NCBI RefSeq assembly: GCF_000622245.1
Contig: NZ_JHXW01000013.1
Coordinates: forward strand, 1-61,184
Length of the DNA stretch: 61,184 nucleotides
Reading direction: 5' to 3'
Origin: Fusobacterium perfoetens ATCC 29250
GTDB lineage: Bacteria; Fusobacteriota; Fusobacteriia; Fusobacteriales; Fusobacteriaceae
Shown: positions 26,207 through 52,936 of the stretch, one piece after another
Layout of the letters: the number at the start of each line of letters is the position of its first letter
Numbering within the stretch: position 1 is the first letter of the stretch
Position numbers and translations under genes: made by a program
The notes under the pieces: model-generated
Seen by the model: only the letters and a program-made list of their open reading frames with translations
Told to the model about the DNA's origin: nothing
Database searches by the model: none

Positions 26207-26977
26207 ATGGCAGTTATAATAAAAACTCCTGAAGAAATAGAAGGAATAAAAAAAGCCAATCAAATAATAGCTAGATTATACAAAGAAATATTACCTCCTC
26301 ATATTAAACCAGGAATTTCTACCAAAGAAATAGATAAAATAGTAGATGATTATATTAGGTCACAAGGAGCTATTCCAGGTTGTATTGGAGTTCCGGGACC
26401 TTATGGACCATTTCCTGCAGCAACTTGTATATCTGTAAATGAAGTAGTAGTCCATGGAATTCCTAGTGAAAAAATAATATTAAAAGAGGGAGATATAGTT
26501 AGTATAGATACTGTAACTATATTAGATGGATTTTATGGAGATGCCGCTATAACTTATCCTGTTGGAGAAATTGATTCAGAAACTAAAAAATTATTAGAAG
26601 TAACTGAAAAAGCAAGAGAAATAGGGATAGAAATGGCAGTGGTAGGAAATAGATTAGGAGATATAGGACATGCTATCCAATCTTTTGTAGAGAAGAATGG
26701 TTTTTCTGTAGTGAGAGATTATGCAGGACATGGGGTAGGAAAAGAAATGCATGAAGACCCTTGTGTAGCAAACTATGGAAGAAAAGGAAGAGGAATAAAA
26801 ATAGAAGAAGGAATGGTTTTAGCTATAGAGCCTATGGTTAATATGGGAAGTTATAAAATTGGAATGTTAAATGATGGTTGGACAGTAGTAACAAGAGATG
26901 GAAAAAAATCAGCTCATTTTGAACATTCTATAGCTATAGTAAATGGAAAACCATTGGTACTTAGTAAATTAGATTAA
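26207..26977 (+). CDS. map: Methionine aminopeptidase, type I
   Basis: 256 residues. All five metal ligands of the M24A family are visible: Asp residues in IDTVTILDGFYGDAAITY, His in GHGVGKEMHEDP, Glu in AIEPMV and Glu in HFEHSIAI; VVHGIPSE carries the substrate-contacting His. It removes the N-terminal Met of nascent proteins. AAAGGATGG precedes ATG 26207. It is 24 bases after adk. Confidence 0.97.
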   Translation: MAVIIKTPEEIEGIKKANQIIARLYKEILPPHIKPGISTKEIDKIVDDYIRSQGAIPGCIGVPGPYGPFPAATCISVNEVVVHGIPSEKIILKEGDIVSIDTVTILDGFYGDAAITYPVGEIDSETKKLLEVTEKAREIGIEMAVVGNRLGDIGHAIQSFVEKNGFSVVRDYAGHGVGKEMHEDPCVANYGRKGRGIKIEEGMVLAIEPMVNMGSYKIGMLNDGWTVVTRDGKKSAHFEHSIAIVNGKPLVLSKLD

Positions 26978-44886: not shown

Positions 44887-45032
44887 AAATGTGCCATATT
44901 TATTCAATAGAAAAGAAATAAAAAAAAAGCTTGAAATTCCTATAAAAAAGTGATAAAGTATCATCAATCTTTAATTTAAAGACAAATGTTCTTAAAATAG
45001 AAACATAAATTTTAAAAGGGGAAGTGATTTTT

Positions 45033-46187
45033 ATGAAAAAGAAATTTTTAGCATTAATTTTAGCTTTAGGAGTCATATCAGGAATTTTGACAGGTTGTGG
45101 TGGAAAAGAAGAAGTTAAAGAAGATGTTATTAAAATAGGAGTTTTTGAACCTCTTACAGGAGAAAATGGTGGAGGAGGTTCTCAAGAAGTTGATGGAATA
45201 AAATATGCAAATAAAGTTTATCCAGAAGTTTTAGGAAAAAAAGTAGAATTAGTTATAGTTGATAATAAATCTGATAAGGCTGAGGCTTCAGTAGCAGCTA
45301 CTCGTTTGGTAGAAAAAGAAAAAGTTGCTGCTGTAATAGGTTCTTATGGATCTGGAGTTTCAATAGCAGCTGGAGATATATTTAAAAATGCCAAAGTTCC
45401 AGCTATGGGAGCTTCTTGTACAAATCCAATGGTAACAGAAGGAAACGAATTTTATTTCCGTACTTGTTTCTTAGACCCATTCCAAGGTAAAGTTATGGCA
45501 CAATATGCTATTGAAAAAGGAAATAAAAAAGCAGCTATAATAACTCAAATAGGAGATGATTATTCAACAGGATTAGGAAATTTCTTTAAAGAAGCCTTTA
45601 CAAAATTAGGAGGAGAAATAGTTTATCATGGAGAATTCCAAACAAATGAACAAGATTTTAACTCAATATTAACAAATGTAAAAGCTTCAGGAGCTGAAGT
45701 AATATTTGCTCCTTCATCAATAGCTTCAGCTGGATTAATTATAAAACAAACAAGAGCTTTGGGTATTGAGGCTCAAATAATGGCTGGGGATACTTGGGAA
45801 AATATAGCAATAATAGATGTAGCTGGAGAATCAGCTGAGGGAGTTGTAATTTCTACATTCTTTGATGAACATAATACATTAGCTACAGAAGAAGCTAAAA
45901 AATTTGTCAAAGGATTTAAAGAATATTTAGGTGGACCAGATGAAATAATTCCAGCTGTAGCTTCTTTAGGATATGATGCTTATGTAGTAATATTGAATGC
46001 TATAAAACAGGCTGGAAGTACTGATGGAGAGGCTATAAGAAAGGCTTTAGTAGATATGAAAGGTGTAGAAGGAGTAACAGGAGTTTATTCATTTGATGAA
46101 AATGGAGATGCTAAAAAAGATATGGCAGTAATAAAAATAGTAAAAGATGGAAAATTCCAATATATAGATACAGTAGTAGTCAAATAA
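45033..46187 (+). CDS. livJ: Branched-chain/neutral amino acid ABC transporter binding lipoprotein
   Basis: About 384 residues. A signal peptide ends in lipobox LTGC; then the LivJ-type fold: IKIGVFEPLTGENGGGGSQEVDG (N-terminal lobe start, given in part), VAAVIGSYGSGVSIAAGD and AALIIKQ-like helices. It captures amino acids, probably Leu/Ile/Val-like, for LivHMGF. GTG 45024 is in frame, but ATG 45033 behind AAAGGGGAAG is preferred. It is separated from livH by a GC-rich hairpin. Confidence 0.92.
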   Translation: MKKKFLALILALGVISGILTGCGGKEEVKEDVIKIGVFEPLTGENGGGGSQEVDGIKYANKVYPEVLGKKVELVIVDNKSDKAEASVAATRLVEKEKVAAVIGSYGSGVSIAAGDIFKNAKVPAMGASCTNPMVTEGNEFYFRTCFLDPFQGKVMAQYAIEKGNKKAAIITQIGDDYSTGLGNFFKEAFTKLGGEIVYHGEFQTNEQDFNSILTNVKASGAEVIFAPSSIASAGLIIKQTRALGIEAQIMAGDTWENIAIIDVAGESAEGVVISTFFDEHNTLATEEAKKFVKGFKEYLGGPDEIIPAVASLGYDAYVVILNAIKQAGSTDGEAIRKALVDMKGVEGVTGVYSFDENGDAKKDMAVIKIVKDGKFQYIDTVVVK

Positions 46188-46192
46188 ATTAA

Positions 46193-46218
46193 AACCCCCT
46201 CTTTTAAGAGAGGGGGTT
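46193..46218 (+). terminator. Hairpin between livJ and livH
   Basis: AACCCCCTCT (46193-46202) pairs perfectly with AGAGGGGGTT (46209-46218). It is very GC-rich for this genome and no strong T-run follows, so it is likely a partial terminator or RNA-stabilising hairpin giving more livJ than permease mRNA. Confidence 0.7.
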
Positions 46219-46243
46219 CTTAAATATATTAGGGAGGGAAAAT

Positions 46244-47137
46244 ATGGACCTATCAACACTTGTACAACATATTATAAATGGTATTTCATTGGGAAGTCTT
46301 TATGCTCTTATAGCAATAGGATATACAATGGTATACGGAATTTTATTACTTATAAATTTTGCTCATGGAGATATTTTTATGATGGCAGGTTATTTTATGA
46401 TATTTTCAGTAATAAATTTTGGTTTACCATTTTTTATAGCTATTCCTTTAGTATTAATATTAACAGTATTATTAGGGATAATATTGGAAAGAACAGCTTA
46501 TAGACCTCTTAGAAATGCTCCAAGAATGTCGATAATGATATCAGCTATAGGAGCTTCTTATTTTTTAGAGAATTTAGCTACATATTTATTTACAGGAGTA
46601 CCAAAAAGATATCCAGAAATTACTTGGTTAACAAAAATAGTTACTTTTGGTGATGTTTCTTTTCAAGTAGTTACAATAATAACTCCTATAGTAACAATGA
46701 TTTTGTTATTTGGATTGATGACATTAGTTAATAAAACAAAGGTTGGTATGGCCATGAGAGCAGCCTCTAAAGATTATGAGGCAGCTAGATTAATGGGAAT
46801 AAAAATAAATTGGATAATAGGAATAACTTTTGTAATAGGGTCATTTTTAGCAGCAATTGGTTCTATATTATGGGGAAGCAAATATCCAAGTGTTTATCCT
46901 TTAGTAGGAATGATGCCAGGATTAAAATGTTTTATAGCAGCTGTTTTTGGAGGAATAGGAAATATTCCAGGAGCTGTATTAGGAGGATTAACTTTAGGAT
47001 TAGGTGAGGCTTTATTAGTGGCTTTTATACCTAGTATGACAGGATATCGTGATGCATTTGCTTTCATATTATTAATTATAATATTAATAGTTAAACCTAA
47101 TGGATTATTAGGTGAAAAAGTAACTGATAAGGTGTGA
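46244..47137 (+). CDS. livH: Branched-chain amino acid ABC transporter permease LivH
   Basis: 297 residues, mostly hydrophobic. IINGISLGSLYALIAIGYTMVYG and LINFAHGDIFMMAGY at the start, and AAVFGGIGNIPGAVLGG near the C-terminus are standard LivH sequences (the last is the ATPase-coupling EAA-like region). It forms the channel with LivM. AGGGAGGG precedes ATG 46244. livM follows 4 bases after the stop. Confidence 0.95.
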   Translation: MDLSTLVQHIINGISLGSLYALIAIGYTMVYGILLLINFAHGDIFMMAGYFMIFSVINFGLPFFIAIPLVLILTVLLGIILERTAYRPLRNAPRMSIMISAIGASYFLENLATYLFTGVPKRYPEITWLTKIVTFGDVSFQVVTIITPIVTMILLFGLMTLVNKTKVGMAMRAASKDYEAARLMGIKINWIIGITFVIGSFLAAIGSILWGSKYPSVYPLVGMMPGLKCFIAAVFGGIGNIPGAVLGGLTLGLGEALLVAFIPSMTGYRDAFAFILLIIILIVKPNGLLGEKVTDKV

Positions 47138-47141
47138 TATT

Positions 47142-48275
47142 ATGGAAAAAAAATTATCAAATAAGATAAAAAATATATGTACAATAATTTTAGTTATTTT
47201 AAGTATTTTTATATTATTTCTTTTTGATAGAGAAATAATAGGAGATGCTTATTTAAGAAGAATATTAAATTTATCAGCTATCTATGCAATAATAAGTGTA
47301 TCTATGAATTTAGTTAATGGATTTACAGGATTATTTTCATTGGGACAAGCTGGATTTGTGGCTATTGGGGCTTTTAGTGTGGCTGTATTTACAGTTCCAG
47401 AAAAATATATACAATCTATATTTTATATAAAACCTATGGCGCCATGGTTAGTAGAAATGAGATTACCTTTTGTAGTAGCTTTACTTATTGGAGGCTTAAT
47501 AGCTGGAATTTTGGCCTTTTTAATAGGATATCCTATTCTTAGATTAAAAAGTGATTATTTAGCTATAGCTACTTTAGGATTTTCAGAAATTATAAGAATA
47601 GTACTAACAAATATGCAAACTATAACAAATGGAGCTTTGGGAATAAATAGAATACCTCCTATGAGATCTATGTTCATACCTTTTGGAATAGCTGTAATTT
47701 GTATAGGAATGATGGTTTTATTAATAAATTCAAGTTATGGAAGAGCTTTTAAGGCTATAAGAGAGGATAATATAGCAGCAGAATCTATGGGAATAAATTT
47801 AGCTTTACATAAAAATTTATCTTTTGCCATAAGTGCCTTTTTTAGTGCCATAGCTGGGGGACTTTATGCTGCTTTACTTACTACAGTAGACCCAAAACAA
47901 TTTTATTTCACTTTTACATATAATTTCTTATTAATAATTGTTTTTGGTGGAATAGGAAGTGTAACAGGTTCAGTAATAGCTTCATTTGTAGTAACTTATG
48001 GTTTAGAGTGGTTACGTATATTTGATGAACCGTTGATAATCGGTGGAGTCACAATACCGTTTTTTAGAGCTGGACTTAGAATGGTAATATTTTCATTATT
48101 ATTAATGATAATAGTTTTATTTTTTAGAAAAGGACTTATGGGAAATAAAGAATTTTCATGGGATGGAATATATAATTTCTTGTTAAGAATAAAAATATCT
48201 ATAAAACAAAAAAGATATGATAAGATGAGAGTTTATGTAAGAAAACCCTTAAAAAATAAGGGAGGGGATAAGTAA
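47142..48275 (+). CDS. livM: Branched-chain amino acid ABC transporter permease LivM
   Basis: 377 residues with about ten hydrophobic spans. LVNGFTGLFSLGQAGFVAIGA, LRLKSDYLAIATLGFSEIIR and IIVFGGIGSVTGSVI are diagnostic of LivM. An additional basic tail of about 40 residues follows the last span (KISIKQKRYDKMRVYVRK). Its stop overlaps the livG start codon by one base (TAATG). Confidence 0.94.
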   Translation: MEKKLSNKIKNICTIILVILSIFILFLFDREIIGDAYLRRILNLSAIYAIISVSMNLVNGFTGLFSLGQAGFVAIGAFSVAVFTVPEKYIQSIFYIKPMAPWLVEMRLPFVVALLIGGLIAGILAFLIGYPILRLKSDYLAIATLGFSEIIRIVLTNMQTITNGALGINRIPPMRSMFIPFGIAVICIGMMVLLINSSYGRAFKAIREDNIAAESMGINLALHKNLSFAISAFFSAIAGGLYAALLTTVDPKQFYFTFTYNFLLIIVFGGIGSVTGSVIASFVVTYGLEWLRIFDEPLIIGGVTIPFFRAGLRMVIFSLLLMIIVLFFRKGLMGNKEFSWDGIYNFLLRIKISIKQKRYDKMRVYVRKPLKNKGGDK

Positions 48276-49108
48276 TGAGTGTACTAAGATTAAATGATAT
48301 AACAATGCAATTTGGAGGAGTAGTAGCAGTAAATAACTTATCCTTAAATGTAGAAAAAGGTGAAATAGTAGCTTTAATAGGTCCAAATGGAGCTGGAAAA
48401 ACAACAGCTTTTAATGTAATTACAGGAGTTTATTCTCCTACAAATGGAGAAATTTCATTTAATGATAATTGTATAATAAGTAATTTTCCTAAAGGAAATA
48501 TGAAAAAAAATTATAGAGGTGAAAATTTAGGAAAATATACAAAAACTATAGAATATACTCCAGATAAAATAACAAAACTAGGAATAGCTAGAACATTTCA
48601 AAATATTAGACTTTTTAAAAATTTAACAGTATTTGAAAATGTATTAATAGCTACTCATATGAGGTCAAAAGCTAATTTAGTTTCAGCCATTTTTAGATTA
48701 AATTATAAAGAAGAAAAGAAAAATAGAGAAGAAACTTTGAAACTTTTAGAAATAGTAGGATTATTAAGTGTAAAAGATGAAATAGCCAGTTCCTTACCTT
48801 ATGGAAAACAAAGAAGATTAGAAATAGCTAGAGCTCTAGCTACAAAACCAGAACTTTTATTACTTGATGAACCAGCAGCTGGAATGAATCCACAAGAAAC
48901 AAATGAATTGACCAAATTTATAAAAGATATAAAAGAAAAATTTGATTTAACAGTCTTTATGATAGAACACCATATGGATTTAGTAATGGAAATATCTGAT
49001 AGAATATATGTTTTAGATTTTGGAAAATTAATAGCTTCAGGAACTCCTAAAGAAATTCAAAATAATAAAAGAGTAATAGAGGCATATTTGGGGGTAGAAA
49101 ATGAATAA
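48275..49108 (+). CDS. livG: Branched-chain amino acid ABC transporter ATPase LivG
   Basis: 277 residues. Walker A GPNGAGKTT, the LivG-type signature SLPYGKQRRLEIARALA and Walker B LLLLDEPAAGMNP are all present, followed by EHHMD (switch His). An insertion of about 25 residues after the first beta sheet (FPKGNMKKNYRGENLGKY) lengthens it slightly compared with usual LivG (about 255). GGGAGGGG precedes the ATG. Confidence 0.95.
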   Translation: MSVLRLNDITMQFGGVVAVNNLSLNVEKGEIVALIGPNGAGKTTAFNVITGVYSPTNGEISFNDNCIISNFPKGNMKKNYRGENLGKYTKTIEYTPDKITKLGIARTFQNIRLFKNLTVFENVLIATHMRSKANLVSAIFRLNYKEEKKNREETLKLLEIVGLLSVKDEIASSLPYGKQRRLEIARALATKPELLLLDEPAAGMNPQETNELTKFIKDIKEKFDLTVFMIEHHMDLVMEISDRIYVLDFGKLIASGTPKEIQNNKRVIEAYLGVENE

Positions 49109-49817
49109 TGAATTATTAAAAATAACAAATTTAAGTGTAACTTATGGTGGGATTGAAGCTGTTAAGGATATAAGTTTTTCTGTACCAGAGGGAAAAATTG
49201 TGACTTTAATAGGAAGTAATGGAGCTGGAAAAAGTTCTACTCTTAGGTCAATTGTAGGACTGGAAAAACCCAAAACAGGAAAAATAGTTTTTGATGGATT
49301 AATATTAAATAATTTTACAACTGATGAGATAGTTGGCGAAGGTATAACATTAGTTCCAGAGGGAAGAAGAGTTTTTGATAATTTAACTGTAGAAGAAAAT
49401 TTAAAAATAGGAGCTTATTTAAGAAAAGATTCTATAAAAGAGGATTTAGAATGGGTATATGGAATATTTCCTAGATTAAAAGAACGTTTATGGCAAAAAG
49501 CTGGAACTTTATCAGGTGGAGAACAACAAATGTTGGCTATAGGTAGAGCCTTAATGCTTAGACCTAAACTAATAATGATGGATGAGCCGTCTCTTGGATT
49601 AGCTCCCATTGTTGTTCAAGAAGTTTTTAAAATAATAAAAGATATAAGTAAACAAGGTGTAACTATTTTGTTGGTAGAACAAAATGCTAATCAAGCCTTA
49701 AAAGTAGCTGATATAGGTTATGTTATGGCTACAGGAAAAATAGTTATGAAAGGAAGTGGAAAAGAATTATTAGATAATGAAGAAATTAAAGAAGCTTATT
49801 TAGGAAAGAAAAAATAA
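49101..49817 (+). CDS. livF: Branched-chain amino acid ABC transporter ATPase LivF
   Basis: 238 residues. Walker A GSNGAGKSS, signature LSGGEQQMLAIGRAL, Walker B LIMMDEPSLGLAP and switch region LVEQNA are visible. It overlaps livG by 8 bases and ends the operon. No clear terminator follows. Confidence 0.95.
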   Translation: MNNELLKITNLSVTYGGIEAVKDISFSVPEGKIVTLIGSNGAGKSSTLRSIVGLEKPKTGKIVFDGLILNNFTTDEIVGEGITLVPEGRRVFDNLTVEENLKIGAYLRKDSIKEDLEWVYGIFPRLKERLWQKAGTLSGGEQQMLAIGRALMLRPKLIMMDEPSLGLAPIVVQEVFKIIKDISKQGVTILLVEQNANQALKVADIGYVMATGKIVMKGSGKELLDNEEIKEAYLGKKK

Positions 49818-50168: not shown

Positions 50169-50197
50169 TTTACAAAATATAAAAAATAATGTATCAT
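50169..50197 (+). promoter_or_regulatory. Promoter of the expressed porin (outside the invertible segment)
   Basis: TTTACA (50169-50174) and TATCAT (50192-50197) are 17 bases apart. Transcription would start near 50204, about 60 bases before the ATG, with AAGGAGG at 50249-50255. Promoter, ribosome binding site and first four codons all lie left of the inverted repeat and are therefore fixed. Confidence 0.78.
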
Positions 50198-50265
50198 TAA
50201 GTTAAAGATGGAAAAAATAACACATCTTAAAATAAATTATGATAATTTAAGGAGGAAATTTAATT

Positions 50266-51114
50266 ATGAAAAAATTAGCACTTTTATTAGCAGCAGTTGG
50301 AATGGTATCAGCAGTAGCTTACGCAGCACCTGAATTAAAAGTTACATCAGTAGGACAAGAAATTGAAATAGAAAACTGGTCAAATGGTCCAGATTTAGAT
50401 GAAGTTAACTTATTTAATAATGTTGGATTAGCTTATGGAGATTGGACATTTGGTTTACAAGCTGGTAAACAATGGGCTATAAACTTTGATGATACTAAAG
50501 ATGTAACTAGTAAAAATCATAGATTACAAATAGATGTTTGGAAAAAAGTAACTGATGATTTAAAATTAGGATTTAGATATAGAGGAACTTCTTCTTATGA
50601 TAGATACTATGCTAGATGGGACTGGTCAAATGGAATGTTATGGTCAGCTGGAGATGTTTGGTATGAATCATATAACGGAAATAAAACTGACTGGTTAAAA
50701 ACAGAAATATTCCCAATTGGATTAAAATATGGAGTATTTAAAGTAGGATATTTCTTAAATTATAATACTTTAATGGGTGGAGCAGATGTTAATGATAATG
50801 ATGAATATATTGAACATCAAATAAGAGCATATGCTACTCTTTATAAAACAGATAGATTAACTTTAACAGCTGAAGGTAGATTTACTATTTCTGCTGATGA
50901 AAAATATAATGGAGTAAAACCTCATAGAGAATATGATGATTTTGGAAGAAATAGATTATATTTAGGTGCTGATTATAAAGTTACTGAAAATTTAAATGTT
51001 TATGGAAAATTTGGATATGAATATAGAGAATGGAGATTAGAAGATAACGCAATAGACGACCATACTCAAAAAATATATCAAGATATCATAGTTGGATGGT
51101 CTTATAAATTCTAA
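50266..51114 (+). CDS. Major outer membrane porin A (expressed orientation)
   Basis: 282 residues. Signal peptide MKKLALLLAAVGMVSAVAYA is followed by APELKVTSVGQ and a beta-barrel region of alternating hydrophobic/aromatic residues, ending in GWSYKF; a C-terminal Phe is the usual signal for outer-membrane barrel assembly. It resembles the fusobacterial major outer membrane protein group. Strong AAGGAGG and a promoter precede it. Codons 5-23 lie in a 55-bp sequence repeated in inverted orientation at the start of porin B, so the gene is a fusion point of the invertible segment. A terminator follows at 51128-51155. Confidence 0.9.
   Translation: MKKLALLLAAVGMVSAVAYAAPELKVTSVGQEIEIENWSNGPDLDEVNLFNNVGLAYGDWTFGLQAGKQWAINFDDTKDVTSKNHRLQIDVWKKVTDDLKLGFRYRGTSSYDRYYARWDWSNGMLWSAGDVWYESYNGNKTDWLKTEIFPIGLKYGVFKVGYFLNYNTLMGGADVNDNDEYIEHQIRAYATLYKTDRLTLTAEGRFTISADEKYNGVKPHREYDDFGRNRLYLGADYKVTENLNVYGKFGYEYREWRLEDNAIDDHTQKIYQDIIVGWSYKF
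50279..50333 (+). repeat. Left 55-bp inverted repeat (IR-L)
   Basis: Identical over all 55 bases to the reverse complement of 52866-52920. It begins at the second base of codon 5 of porin A and encodes most of its signal peptide. Identity stops abruptly at both edges (G versus C before, A versus G after), though the next 25 bases stay similar because the proteins are related. Confidence 0.95.
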
Positions 51115-51127
51115 TAAAAAATAAAAG

Positions 51128-51155
51128 GAGAGGAAATTTATTTTCCTCTCTTTTT
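51128..51155 (+). terminator. Terminator after porin A
   Basis: GAGAGGAAA (51128-51136) and TTTCCTCTC (51142-51150) form a perfect stem followed by TTTTT. Confidence 0.92.
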
Positions 51156-51191
51156 CCTAATATACTATGTGAAAGTAATTAAAATAATTTT

Positions 51192-51218
51192 GGTAACATC
51201 TCTTTTGTTACCTTTTTT
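51192..51218. terminator. Second terminator between porin A and invertase
   Basis: GGTAAC (51192-51197) and GTTACC (51207-51212) form a short stem followed by T6 on the plus strand; on the minus strand it follows the invertase stop and may serve that gene also. Confidence 0.7.
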
Positions 51219-51230
51219 ATTTTAACTATG

Positions 51231-51827
51231 TTATTTTTCAATATAATTTTTTATAAATTTTGATAATGTTCCTCTGTCTACTTTTAATTTTCGAGCTATT
51301 TCACTTTTAGAAACTTTTTCTTTTAAAAGTTTTTTTATAGTTTCTTCTTTTCCTGTTAATTTAACTTTTTTAGCCTTTCCTAAAGGACGCCCCAATCTAA
51401 TTCCTTCAGCTTTTTTCCTAGCTAAAGCTTCTTTTGTTCTTTGACTTATAAGATTTCTTTCTATTTCAGCTGATAATCCAAAGGCAAAAGCTAAAACTTT
51501 GCTTTGAATATCATCCCCTAAGCGATAATTATCTTTTATAGTCCATACTCTGCACTCTTTAGTCATACAAATATTTAAAATTTCCATTATCATAAAAAGA
51601 TTTCTTCCAAGTCTAGAAAGTTCAGAATAAATTATTAAATCTCCTTTTGTTACTTTTTTCAAAAGTCTTCCTAATTTTCTTTTGTCATAATTTTTTGTTC
51701 CACTAATAGTTTCTTCAATCCATCCATTAATAGTTAGTTTTTCTTTTTGACAAAACTTAATTATTTCAAATCTTTGATTTTCAACAGTTTGTTTATCACT
51801 ACTAACTCTTATATATCCATATACCAT
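51231..51827 (-). CDS. Mpi-type serine DNA invertase/resolvase
   Basis: About 198 residues. The N-terminal catalytic domain begins MVYGYIRVSSDKQTVENQ, with the nucleophilic Ser in the YIRVS motif; ELSRLGRN holds a conserved active-site Arg, and FAFGLSAEIERNLISQRTKEAL is the long E helix region (described in part). Residues about 155-198 are a helix-turn-helix (SKSEIARKLKVDRGTLSKFI). Size and wording of the N-terminus resemble the Mpi invertase of Bacteroides fragilis. Start ATG 51827 follows AAAGGTGGGGAA; a longer frame starts at 51842. It lies between the two porin genes and is the natural enzyme for the 55-bp repeats. Confidence 0.9.
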   Translation of the reverse strand: MVYGYIRVSSDKQTVENQRFEIIKFCQKEKLTINGWIEETISGTKNYDKRKLGRLLKKVTKGDLIIYSELSRLGRNLFMIMEILNICMTKECRVWTIKDNYRLGDDIQSKVLAFAFGLSAEIERNLISQRTKEALARKKAEGIRLGRPLGKAKKVKLTGKEETIKKLLKEKVSKSEIARKLKVDRGTLSKFIKNYIEK

Positions 51828-52029
51828 TTCCCCACCTTTCACATAGTTATTATATATTTTAATATTTTTTTGATAAAAATAAAATATATAAATTTATGTA
51901 AATATAAGTTATTGCCTATTATTAGCATTAATTTGGAAATGGCTAATTGTTATTTTGTAACTTTGAATTTTTACTGAATATGGATATCTAGAATTTTAGT
52001 TATAAGTTTAAATGAATAACAAGAGAAAA

Positions 52030-52049
52030 AGAGAGACCGAAGTCTCTCT
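52030..52049 (-). terminator. Terminator after porin B body
   Basis: AGAGAGAC (52030-52037) and GTCTCTCT (52042-52049) pair perfectly; on the minus strand the loop is TTCG and a T-run follows. It ends 33 bases after the porin B stop. Confidence 0.9.
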
Positions 52050-52081
52050 AATATTTTCCCTTATATTAAATTTTAATTAAA

Positions 52082-52936
52082 TTAGAATTTATATGTCCAT
52101 CCAAATCCTAATTCTCCATAATAGTCATCAGCTTTAGGAGCTACTTCATGTTCGTCATATTTATTGAACTCATATTGATAGTATCCAGAAAGAGTTAAAT
52201 TTTCTGTTAAAGTATAAGCTGCATTTGCTATAACGATATGTCTATTATTTTCAACTCCATCTTTTCCTTCTGGTGTTTTTACATCTTGTAAAAATTGATA
52301 TCTATATTCAGCACCAACTTTTAAATTTTCTGTAGTATAAATAGTTCCTCTTACTCTAATTTGATTTCTATAATCATGAGCAGAAGCATCTCCAGTATAT
52401 TTTGTATATTCTAACCAATAAGCTAATTGAACAGGACCATATGTTATTTGTAATGGTTCTCCATCCATAAAGAATGCATCTTGCCCTCCAGTAGTATTAT
52501 TAAATTGATATCCTGGAGCTATATTTCCAGTAAACATTCCAAATTTATAAGAAACTGGTATTTGGAATCTATCATAATCTTTTTGAGCTCTCCATTTTAA
52601 TCCTGCTGAATAATCTCCTATTTTTTTAGAAGCAACTATTTCTAATCTATGATTTGAAGAATTAAATCCATCAGAAACAGTTTCCCCTTTAGAATTTTTC
52701 CAATCTTCTGTAGAAACAGACCATCCTTTTCTAGCTAATAAATTAAAAGACCAATCATCATATGCTAAATTTACTTTATTAGCAATATAAACATTTTCTC
52801 CTATATTTTCATTTCCAGAAGTATTTTCTACTACGAAATCTTGTCCTACTGATGTTACTGTTAACTCAGGTGCTGCGTAAGCTACTGCTGATACCATTCC
52901 AACTGCTGCTAATAAAAGTGGGTTTATTTTTATCAA
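52082..52936 (-). pseudogene. Silent porin B cassette (no start codon, SD or promoter)
   Basis: The open frame encodes about 284 residues of a second porin: LLLAAVGMVSAVAYAAPEL, then TVTSVGQDFVVEN and a barrel region ending in GWTYKF. The body differs strongly from porin A. The frame lacks a true start: upstream of the repeat it reads INP with only a TTG at 52936, no Shine-Dalgarno sequence and no convincing promoter. It is not decayed: there are no stops or frameshifts and it has its own terminator. After inversion it would gain MKKLA and the porin A promoter in frame (about 283 residues). It is best seen as a stored alternative allele. Confidence 0.87.
52866..52920 (-). repeat. Right 55-bp inverted repeat (IR-R)
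   Basis: Exact reverse complement of 50279-50333. It covers the signal-peptide codons of porin B. The flank to the right (52921 onward) is AT-rich and leads into the coaE promoter. Confidence 0.95.

Follow-up and report, generated by a model that had tools for sequence, protein, structure and literature searches.

Two opposed porin genes, a perfect 55-bp inverted repeat and an embedded serine invertase form a predicted gene-altering switch in Fusobacterium perfoetens

The window analysed here is an entire contig of 61,184 bases (GC 27%) from the 2.1-Mb draft genome of Fusobacterium perfoetens ATCC 29250 (hereafter G000). It carries two opposed porin genes with an invertase gene between them. 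Porin A (50266..51114, plus strand; 282 aa) occupies the expression position and is predicted to form a 14-stranded OmpG-like barrel; it is followed by a near-symmetric terminator-like hairpin at 51128..51150, called on the minus strand. An Mpi-family serine DNA invertase is encoded on the minus strand at 51231..51842, with its likely true start at the ATG at 51827, which is preceded by AAGGTGGGG and agrees with the start of its orthologues. The body of porin B (52082..52933, minus strand) lies beyond it, and a symmetric terminator-like hairpin at 52030..52049 follows that gene.

The beginnings of the two porin genes share an inverted repeat, of which the left arm (50279..50333, plus strand) falls within the signal-peptide coding region and the right arm (52866..52920, minus strand) within the signal-peptide coding region of porin B. 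A preliminary description of this DNA had called a perfect 55-bp repeat that begins inside codon 5. We confirmed both points: the arms are identical at 55 of 55 positions as reverse complements, and the first base of the repeat is the second base of porin A codon 5. When the surrounding 12 kb was shuffled (n = 20), the longest dispersed inverted repeat was 17 bp, compared with 55 bp in the real sequence. Since the porin A and porin B bodies are merely 30% identical in protein, the perfect 55-bp stretch is not accounted for by common descent alone. From the arms we infer an invertible segment of 2642 bp (50279..52920), to the left of which 13 constant bases (50266..50278, plus strand), comprising codons 1–4 and the first base of codon 5, would stay with the promoter. 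Inverting this segment in silico gave an intact reading frame, an uninterrupted porin B of 283 aa read from porin A's ATG, as expected from the in-frame exchange of bodies that had been proposed.

Next to the left arm, and outside the invertible segment, lie the expression signals of porin A. A promoter-like site (TTTACA-17-TATCAT) is found at 50169..50197 on the plus strand, and the Shine-Dalgarno sequence AGGAGG (50250-50255) and the ATG (50266-50268) together occupy 50250..50268 on the same strand. These signals recur in three related genomes that carry the invertase (G002, G003 and G006): each has the TTTACA hexamer paired with TATCAT or TATGAT at equal spacing upstream of its left porin, and AAGGAGGAAA..TTATG before the left porin is conserved in four genomes. 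On the right, the porin B body has no Shine-Dalgarno sequence, ATG or promoter-like site upstream and is presumed silent as now oriented. The preliminary description, which placed these signals on the left only, was thus accurate. It had also named a working start and promoter for porin B as what would refute a switch; sequence signals offered none, except for a TTG at 52936 without a Shine-Dalgarno sequence, which is the sole upstream start in the open frame (52082-52936, minus strand).

We count this TTG against a switch, since in principle it could start porin B where it now stands. Porin B would then be made in place from a weak promoter of its own, and both porins would be produced together. 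The open frame does reach the TTG, but there is no Shine-Dalgarno sequence, we found no promoter-like site on the minus strand from the right arm to coaE, and in G006 the right-end porin (porin Y) has an in-frame TAA two codons before its arm, so that no start codon upstream of that stop is usable and such a start is excluded there. We consider production of porin B in place to be barely credible. Where the right-end cassette presumably once had its ATG, the codon is now ATA in G000, TTG in G002 and CTG in G006, from which we infer repeated loss of an unneeded start. The dN/dS of porin B, calculated against its orthologue in G006, is 0.37, which by this measure is moderate constraint only and counts as a further point against a switch.

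The arrangement meets three criteria for a gene-altering inversion system, namely inverted repeats inside the coding sequence with bodies that exchange in frame, a recombinase encoded inside the segment (51231-51842), and signals for expression confined to a single, fixed end. The last of these is judged from sequence signals, and expression itself is inferred. On a fourth criterion, the presence of both orientations in a population, the evidence is limited to differences in orientation between species.

We modelled porin A with AlphaFold, with aligned porins of the locus family as input. The model has 14 strands (pLDDT 85.5), and its best match in the PDB is E. coli OmpG (2iwv; E 7e-11, TM 0.67), and a sequence profile also gave a weak match to OmpG (E 8e-4). 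As modelled, porin A meets the criterion for an OmpG-like 14-stranded monomeric porin, a statement that applies to the fold only, with channel function being inferred. The AlphaFold model of porin B is also a beta-barrel. When the two proteins were compared with the FomA-family porin model NF049910 (cut-off 125 bits), porin A scored 47.4 bits and porin B gave no match; by that profile they are distant FomA relatives and not members of the family. Variation among the porins of the locus (n = 8) is concentrated in alternate hairpin connections (mean entropy 1.68 vs 1.12), which fits one side of the barrel being exposed to selection. We take this as supporting evidence only, because in barrels generally the long loops tend to be the more variable parts.

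The invertase scored 336.3 bits with NF009949 (curated cut-off 272), so that the Mpi-type invertase previously proposed to lie inside the segment, between the porins, is indeed a member of that family. PF00239 matched at 7-147 with 113.7 bits, HTH_23 matched at 171-200 under its cut-off, and RVSS and SRLGR motifs were seen by eye; the protein meets the criterion of a resolvase catalytic domain with a C-terminal HTH in about 200 aa. Its dN/dS between G000 and G002 is 0.045, indicative of strong purifying selection. Given this value and the 0.37 of porin B, neither looks like a dead gene.

Mpi of Bacteroides fragilis has the site motif ARACGTWCGT and carries out global inversion of many promoters. 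The exact motif is absent from the window, including the arms, and matches with one mismatch numbered two where 1.0 was expected, in a search confined to this contig. With no exact motif in the window, a global Mpi of the B. fragilis type is not supported, at the scope of the contig and locus and not of the whole genome. Nor did we detect a dyad that would mark the crossover within the arms: the best candidate matched at 7/12, a value reached by 40% of shuffles and not significant. Scanning the arm sequence against IMG/VR gave no match.

We then compared the locus with those of relatives, examining seven genomes of the genus and surveying 61 Fusobacteriaceae genomes for the family. The invertase is present in only four of the 61 (G000, G002, G003 and G006), all of one genus, and each time it lies beside a porin; closely opposed porin pairs occur only in invertase-carrying genomes among those surveyed. 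G002 has the same arrangement, orientation and outer arm boundary as G000. Between the two, the flanking genes are 91-97% and the invertase 96% identical in amino acids, compared with 64% for the left porin and 39% for the right porin, which is not an orthologue of porin B. The left porin has a dN of 0.25, against 0.02 for livG and 0.04 for coaE, at a comparable dS (0.38 vs 0.28 and 0.26). On these alignments the porin bodies, unlike the flanking genes, diverge fast and are swapped between species.

The locus of G006 is larger and reads, in order, promoter, porin X (+), invertase (+), a HipA/HTH pair (-), porin M (+), porin Y (-) and coaE. Porin M is a third cassette with its own arm and is 76% identical to porin B, to which it is orthologous. 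The invertase of G006 is reversed relative to the promoter when compared with G000. In G003 a porin is followed by an invertase in the same direction as in G006; the contig ends 35 bases past the invertase, and the second porin was not recovered. The preliminary description had suggested a search for inverted order in assemblies of related strains; among related species, the invertase is reversed in G006 and G003, and G002 has the same orientation as G000. The comparison is between species only, with no further assembly of this species to show the segment reversed, and this counts against the reading as a switch. The opposite orientation in G006 and G003 is as expected if the segment flipped during evolution, and this difference between species is the closest that we come to an observed flip.

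Another genome of the genus, G005, lacks the invertase and has two tandem porins at the coaE site, each with its own Shine-Dalgarno sequence and ATG (L122:2702-4905), which is likely how the locus looked before the switch arose. No porin occupies the coaE site in G001 or G004. On the right, coaE adjoins the porin locus in G000, G002 and G006 alike. The left neighbours differ, being a branched-chain amino-acid ABC transporter in G000 and G002 (window 45024-49817) and, by eye, acyl-CoA dehydrogenase-like and radical-SAM-like genes in G006 and G003 (L095:1085-4274, L094:2144-5373).

The outer edge of the arms, CACTTTTATTA, is identical in G000, G002 and G006. The edge is kept even at the right end, whose bases beyond the crossover would go untranslated whichever way the segment lay. 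Mismatches between arms within a genome number 0 in G000, 2 in G002 and 1-2 in G006, compared with 6-11 between the two species pairs (6-8 for G000 vs G006). Being closer within a genome than between species pairs, the arms appear to evolve in concert, which fits a switch. Recent gene conversion could also have kept the arms alike in a relic, that is, in a pair of opposed paralogous porins of which one is decaying and between which there is no present switching. Porin B, which has neither ATG nor Shine-Dalgarno sequence in place and whose dN/dS is above that of housekeeping genes, could be such a decaying copy. However, a relic sits poorly with start-less cassettes that retain intact frames in three species, with an invertase dN/dS of 0.045, with orientations that are opposite between species and with the replacement of a cassette between sister genomes, and we find it very improbable.

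To place the invertase, we retrieved 80 relatives (71-80% aa identity) from Bacteroidota, Clostridia, Spirochaetota and others. In at least 21 of the 80, about a quarter, the invertase adjoins a pair of TaqI-like specificity regions encoded on opposite strands; these are apparently specificity-switching type IIG loci spread across several phyla. The restriction-modification (R-M)-associated loci are L017, L023, L026, L027, L036, L037, L041, L044, L047, L050-L052, L054, L056, L065, L066, L077, L082, L086, L087 and L090. Pfam searches found Eco57I and TaqI_C in the long gene of L086 and TaqI_C alone in its short opposed gene. In most of the R-M loci, inverted repeats with a sharp outer edge, GAGCGWTTTYGTGCAGCA, adjoin the invertase. 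Because its relatives adjoin inverted R-M specificity bodies, the enzyme of the window is no less similar to local gene-altering invertases than to a global promoter invertase.

The porin locus and the type IIG (Eco57I/TaqI_C) loci are alike in that the arms lie at the edge of the coding body with a sharp outer boundary, and in that a full gene faces a stored, opposed body. They differ in the target, which in the type IIG loci is a restriction specificity domain, in the position of the invertase, which there sits next to the inverted segment and not within it, and in the start of the arms (GAGCGWTTTYGTGCAGCA in the type IIG loci, CACTTTTATTAGCAGCA in the porin locus). In a tree of the 80 invertases, the four fusobacterial enzymes form one clade (100/99) with an unresolved sister group, and the R-M association is scattered over the tree, so neither the donor nor the direction of transfer is settled.

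A weight matrix built from the R-M arms had its best position in each porin arm at the outer boundary, although the match was weak: the two arms ranked 58 and 91 of 122,332 positions, which corresponds to a p of about 0.04 for a single arm, a value that cannot be combined across the arms as if they were independent. The top match in the window, at 26404, is within an unrelated reading frame and is presumably due to chance. The crossover is thus not pinpointed, there being no dyad, no Mpi consensus and only a weak match to the R-M arms, and we count this against the switch. Inversion might instead rely on homologous recombination through RecA, or on a different recombinase supplied in trans, with the embedded invertase a passenger or acting elsewhere. 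Such a route would suit arms that are longer than a typical serine-invertase site and have no detectable dyad, and the homogenised arms do point to some gene conversion. It leaves unexplained, however, why the invertase is under strong purifying selection, why every occurrence has a porin next to it, why the 57 other family genomes lack it, and why its relatives directly adjoin gene-altering inverted repeats. We regard this route as unlikely.

We are strongly inclined to conclude that the locus is an invertible gene-altering switch of a surface protein. Its anatomy, its conservation and remodelling across species, the intactness of its coding sequences and the patterns of selection are observed, and the earlier reading of a phase- or antigenic-switch architecture draws support from the anatomy and the comparative data, although the flip itself is inferred. 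In the mechanism that we propose, the promoter, the ribosome-binding site and codons 1–4 would stay fixed to the left of the segment while the serine invertase recombines the inverted arms, within the part that codes for the signal peptide, and thereby reverses the 2.6-kb segment. That the invertase acts on these arms is an inference, as is the reversibility of inversion within a strain. After a flip, a different OmpG-like 14-stranded porin would be made from the same start, and the other porin body would be stored without promoter, Shine-Dalgarno sequence or start codon. With the three arms of G006, successive inversions could bring each body to the expression site, the middle porin needing two; two of these arms are in direct orientation, so that deletion would also be possible. 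The three cassettes of G006 indicate that a small shufflon is one form that the system can take. The benefit, also inferred, would be a changed surface receptor or antigen, with the altered porin affecting phage, antibody or solute selectivity.

Several systems of this kind are known. In Dichelobacter nodosus, the outer-membrane protein genes of the omp1 system reportedly have one 5' end in common and come as several cassettes, and site-specific inversions are said to assort different bodies to one expressed start. The likeness drawn here is one of working only; the fusobacterial locus belongs to a different phylum, concerns a different protein and holds an Mpi-family serine invertase inside its segment. 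In the tail-fibre genes of Mu and P1 (Gin/Cin) and in the R64 shufflon, sites also lie inside the coding sequence, the N terminus is constant and the rest is swapped; Gin and Cin are serine invertases with a Fis enhancer, and the shufflon Rci is a tyrosine recombinase. The targets there are phage or plasmid adhesins, whereas here they are porins. The omp1 inversion system was described by Moses et al., 1995, as cited in PMC5903667, which likewise cites Coyne et al., 2003, for Mpi of B. fragilis. That enzyme reportedly inverts at least 13 scattered regions. The fusobacterial enzyme belongs to the same curated family (NF009949), but is local and, as inferred here, exchanges coding bodies. The preliminary description offered precedents from Bacteroides and enterics only; the closer parallel, Omp1 of D. 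nodosus, was not named there.

It had further been stated that no fusobacterial porin case was known, and our search of the open literature likewise found no description of an invertible fusobacterial porin, with a survey of gene-altering inversions (Milman et al., 2023) being outside its scope. As far as we searched, then, a switch of OmpG-fold porins in fusobacteria is new, and the kind of mechanism is already known from Dichelobacter Omp1, the Mu G segment and shufflons.

We further propose, in a scenario on which we are evenly divided, that a gene-altering invertase from the lineage that shuffles type IIG restriction specificities in Bacteroidota of the gut, in Clostridia and in other bacteria was acquired by a single genus of Fusobacteriaceae and came to sit between tandem porins. 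The outcome would have been a porin shufflon that can expand and that has its bodies replaced from one species to the next, so varying a surface channel in the face of phages or host antibodies. The proposed switch would equip Fusobacteriaceae with a programmed change of a porin as antigen or receptor, and would suggest that one class of invertase can serve both restriction-specificity and surface-protein genes. From a single start, the locus is predicted to yield two or three distinct porin states, a clear prediction that, together with its small size, makes it easy to test; the invertase-free relative with tandem porins provides a natural comparison.

Among the loci of the retrieved relatives, metagenome and draft contigs end about 150 bases or less from the invertase stop codon in L018, L020, L029, L035, L039, L040, L043, L053, L070, L083, L084 and L092, which may reflect breakage of assemblies by repeats or by active inversion. 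The enlarged segment of G006 contains a HipAB-like toxin-antitoxin pair (L095:6615-8061; Pfam HipA_C, Couple_hipA and HTH_3). At L095:9130-9540, a short hydrophobic minus-strand frame, ending in WWWHSNK by eye, is followed by two 71-base near-repeats, an arrangement that resembles a type I toxin-antitoxin.
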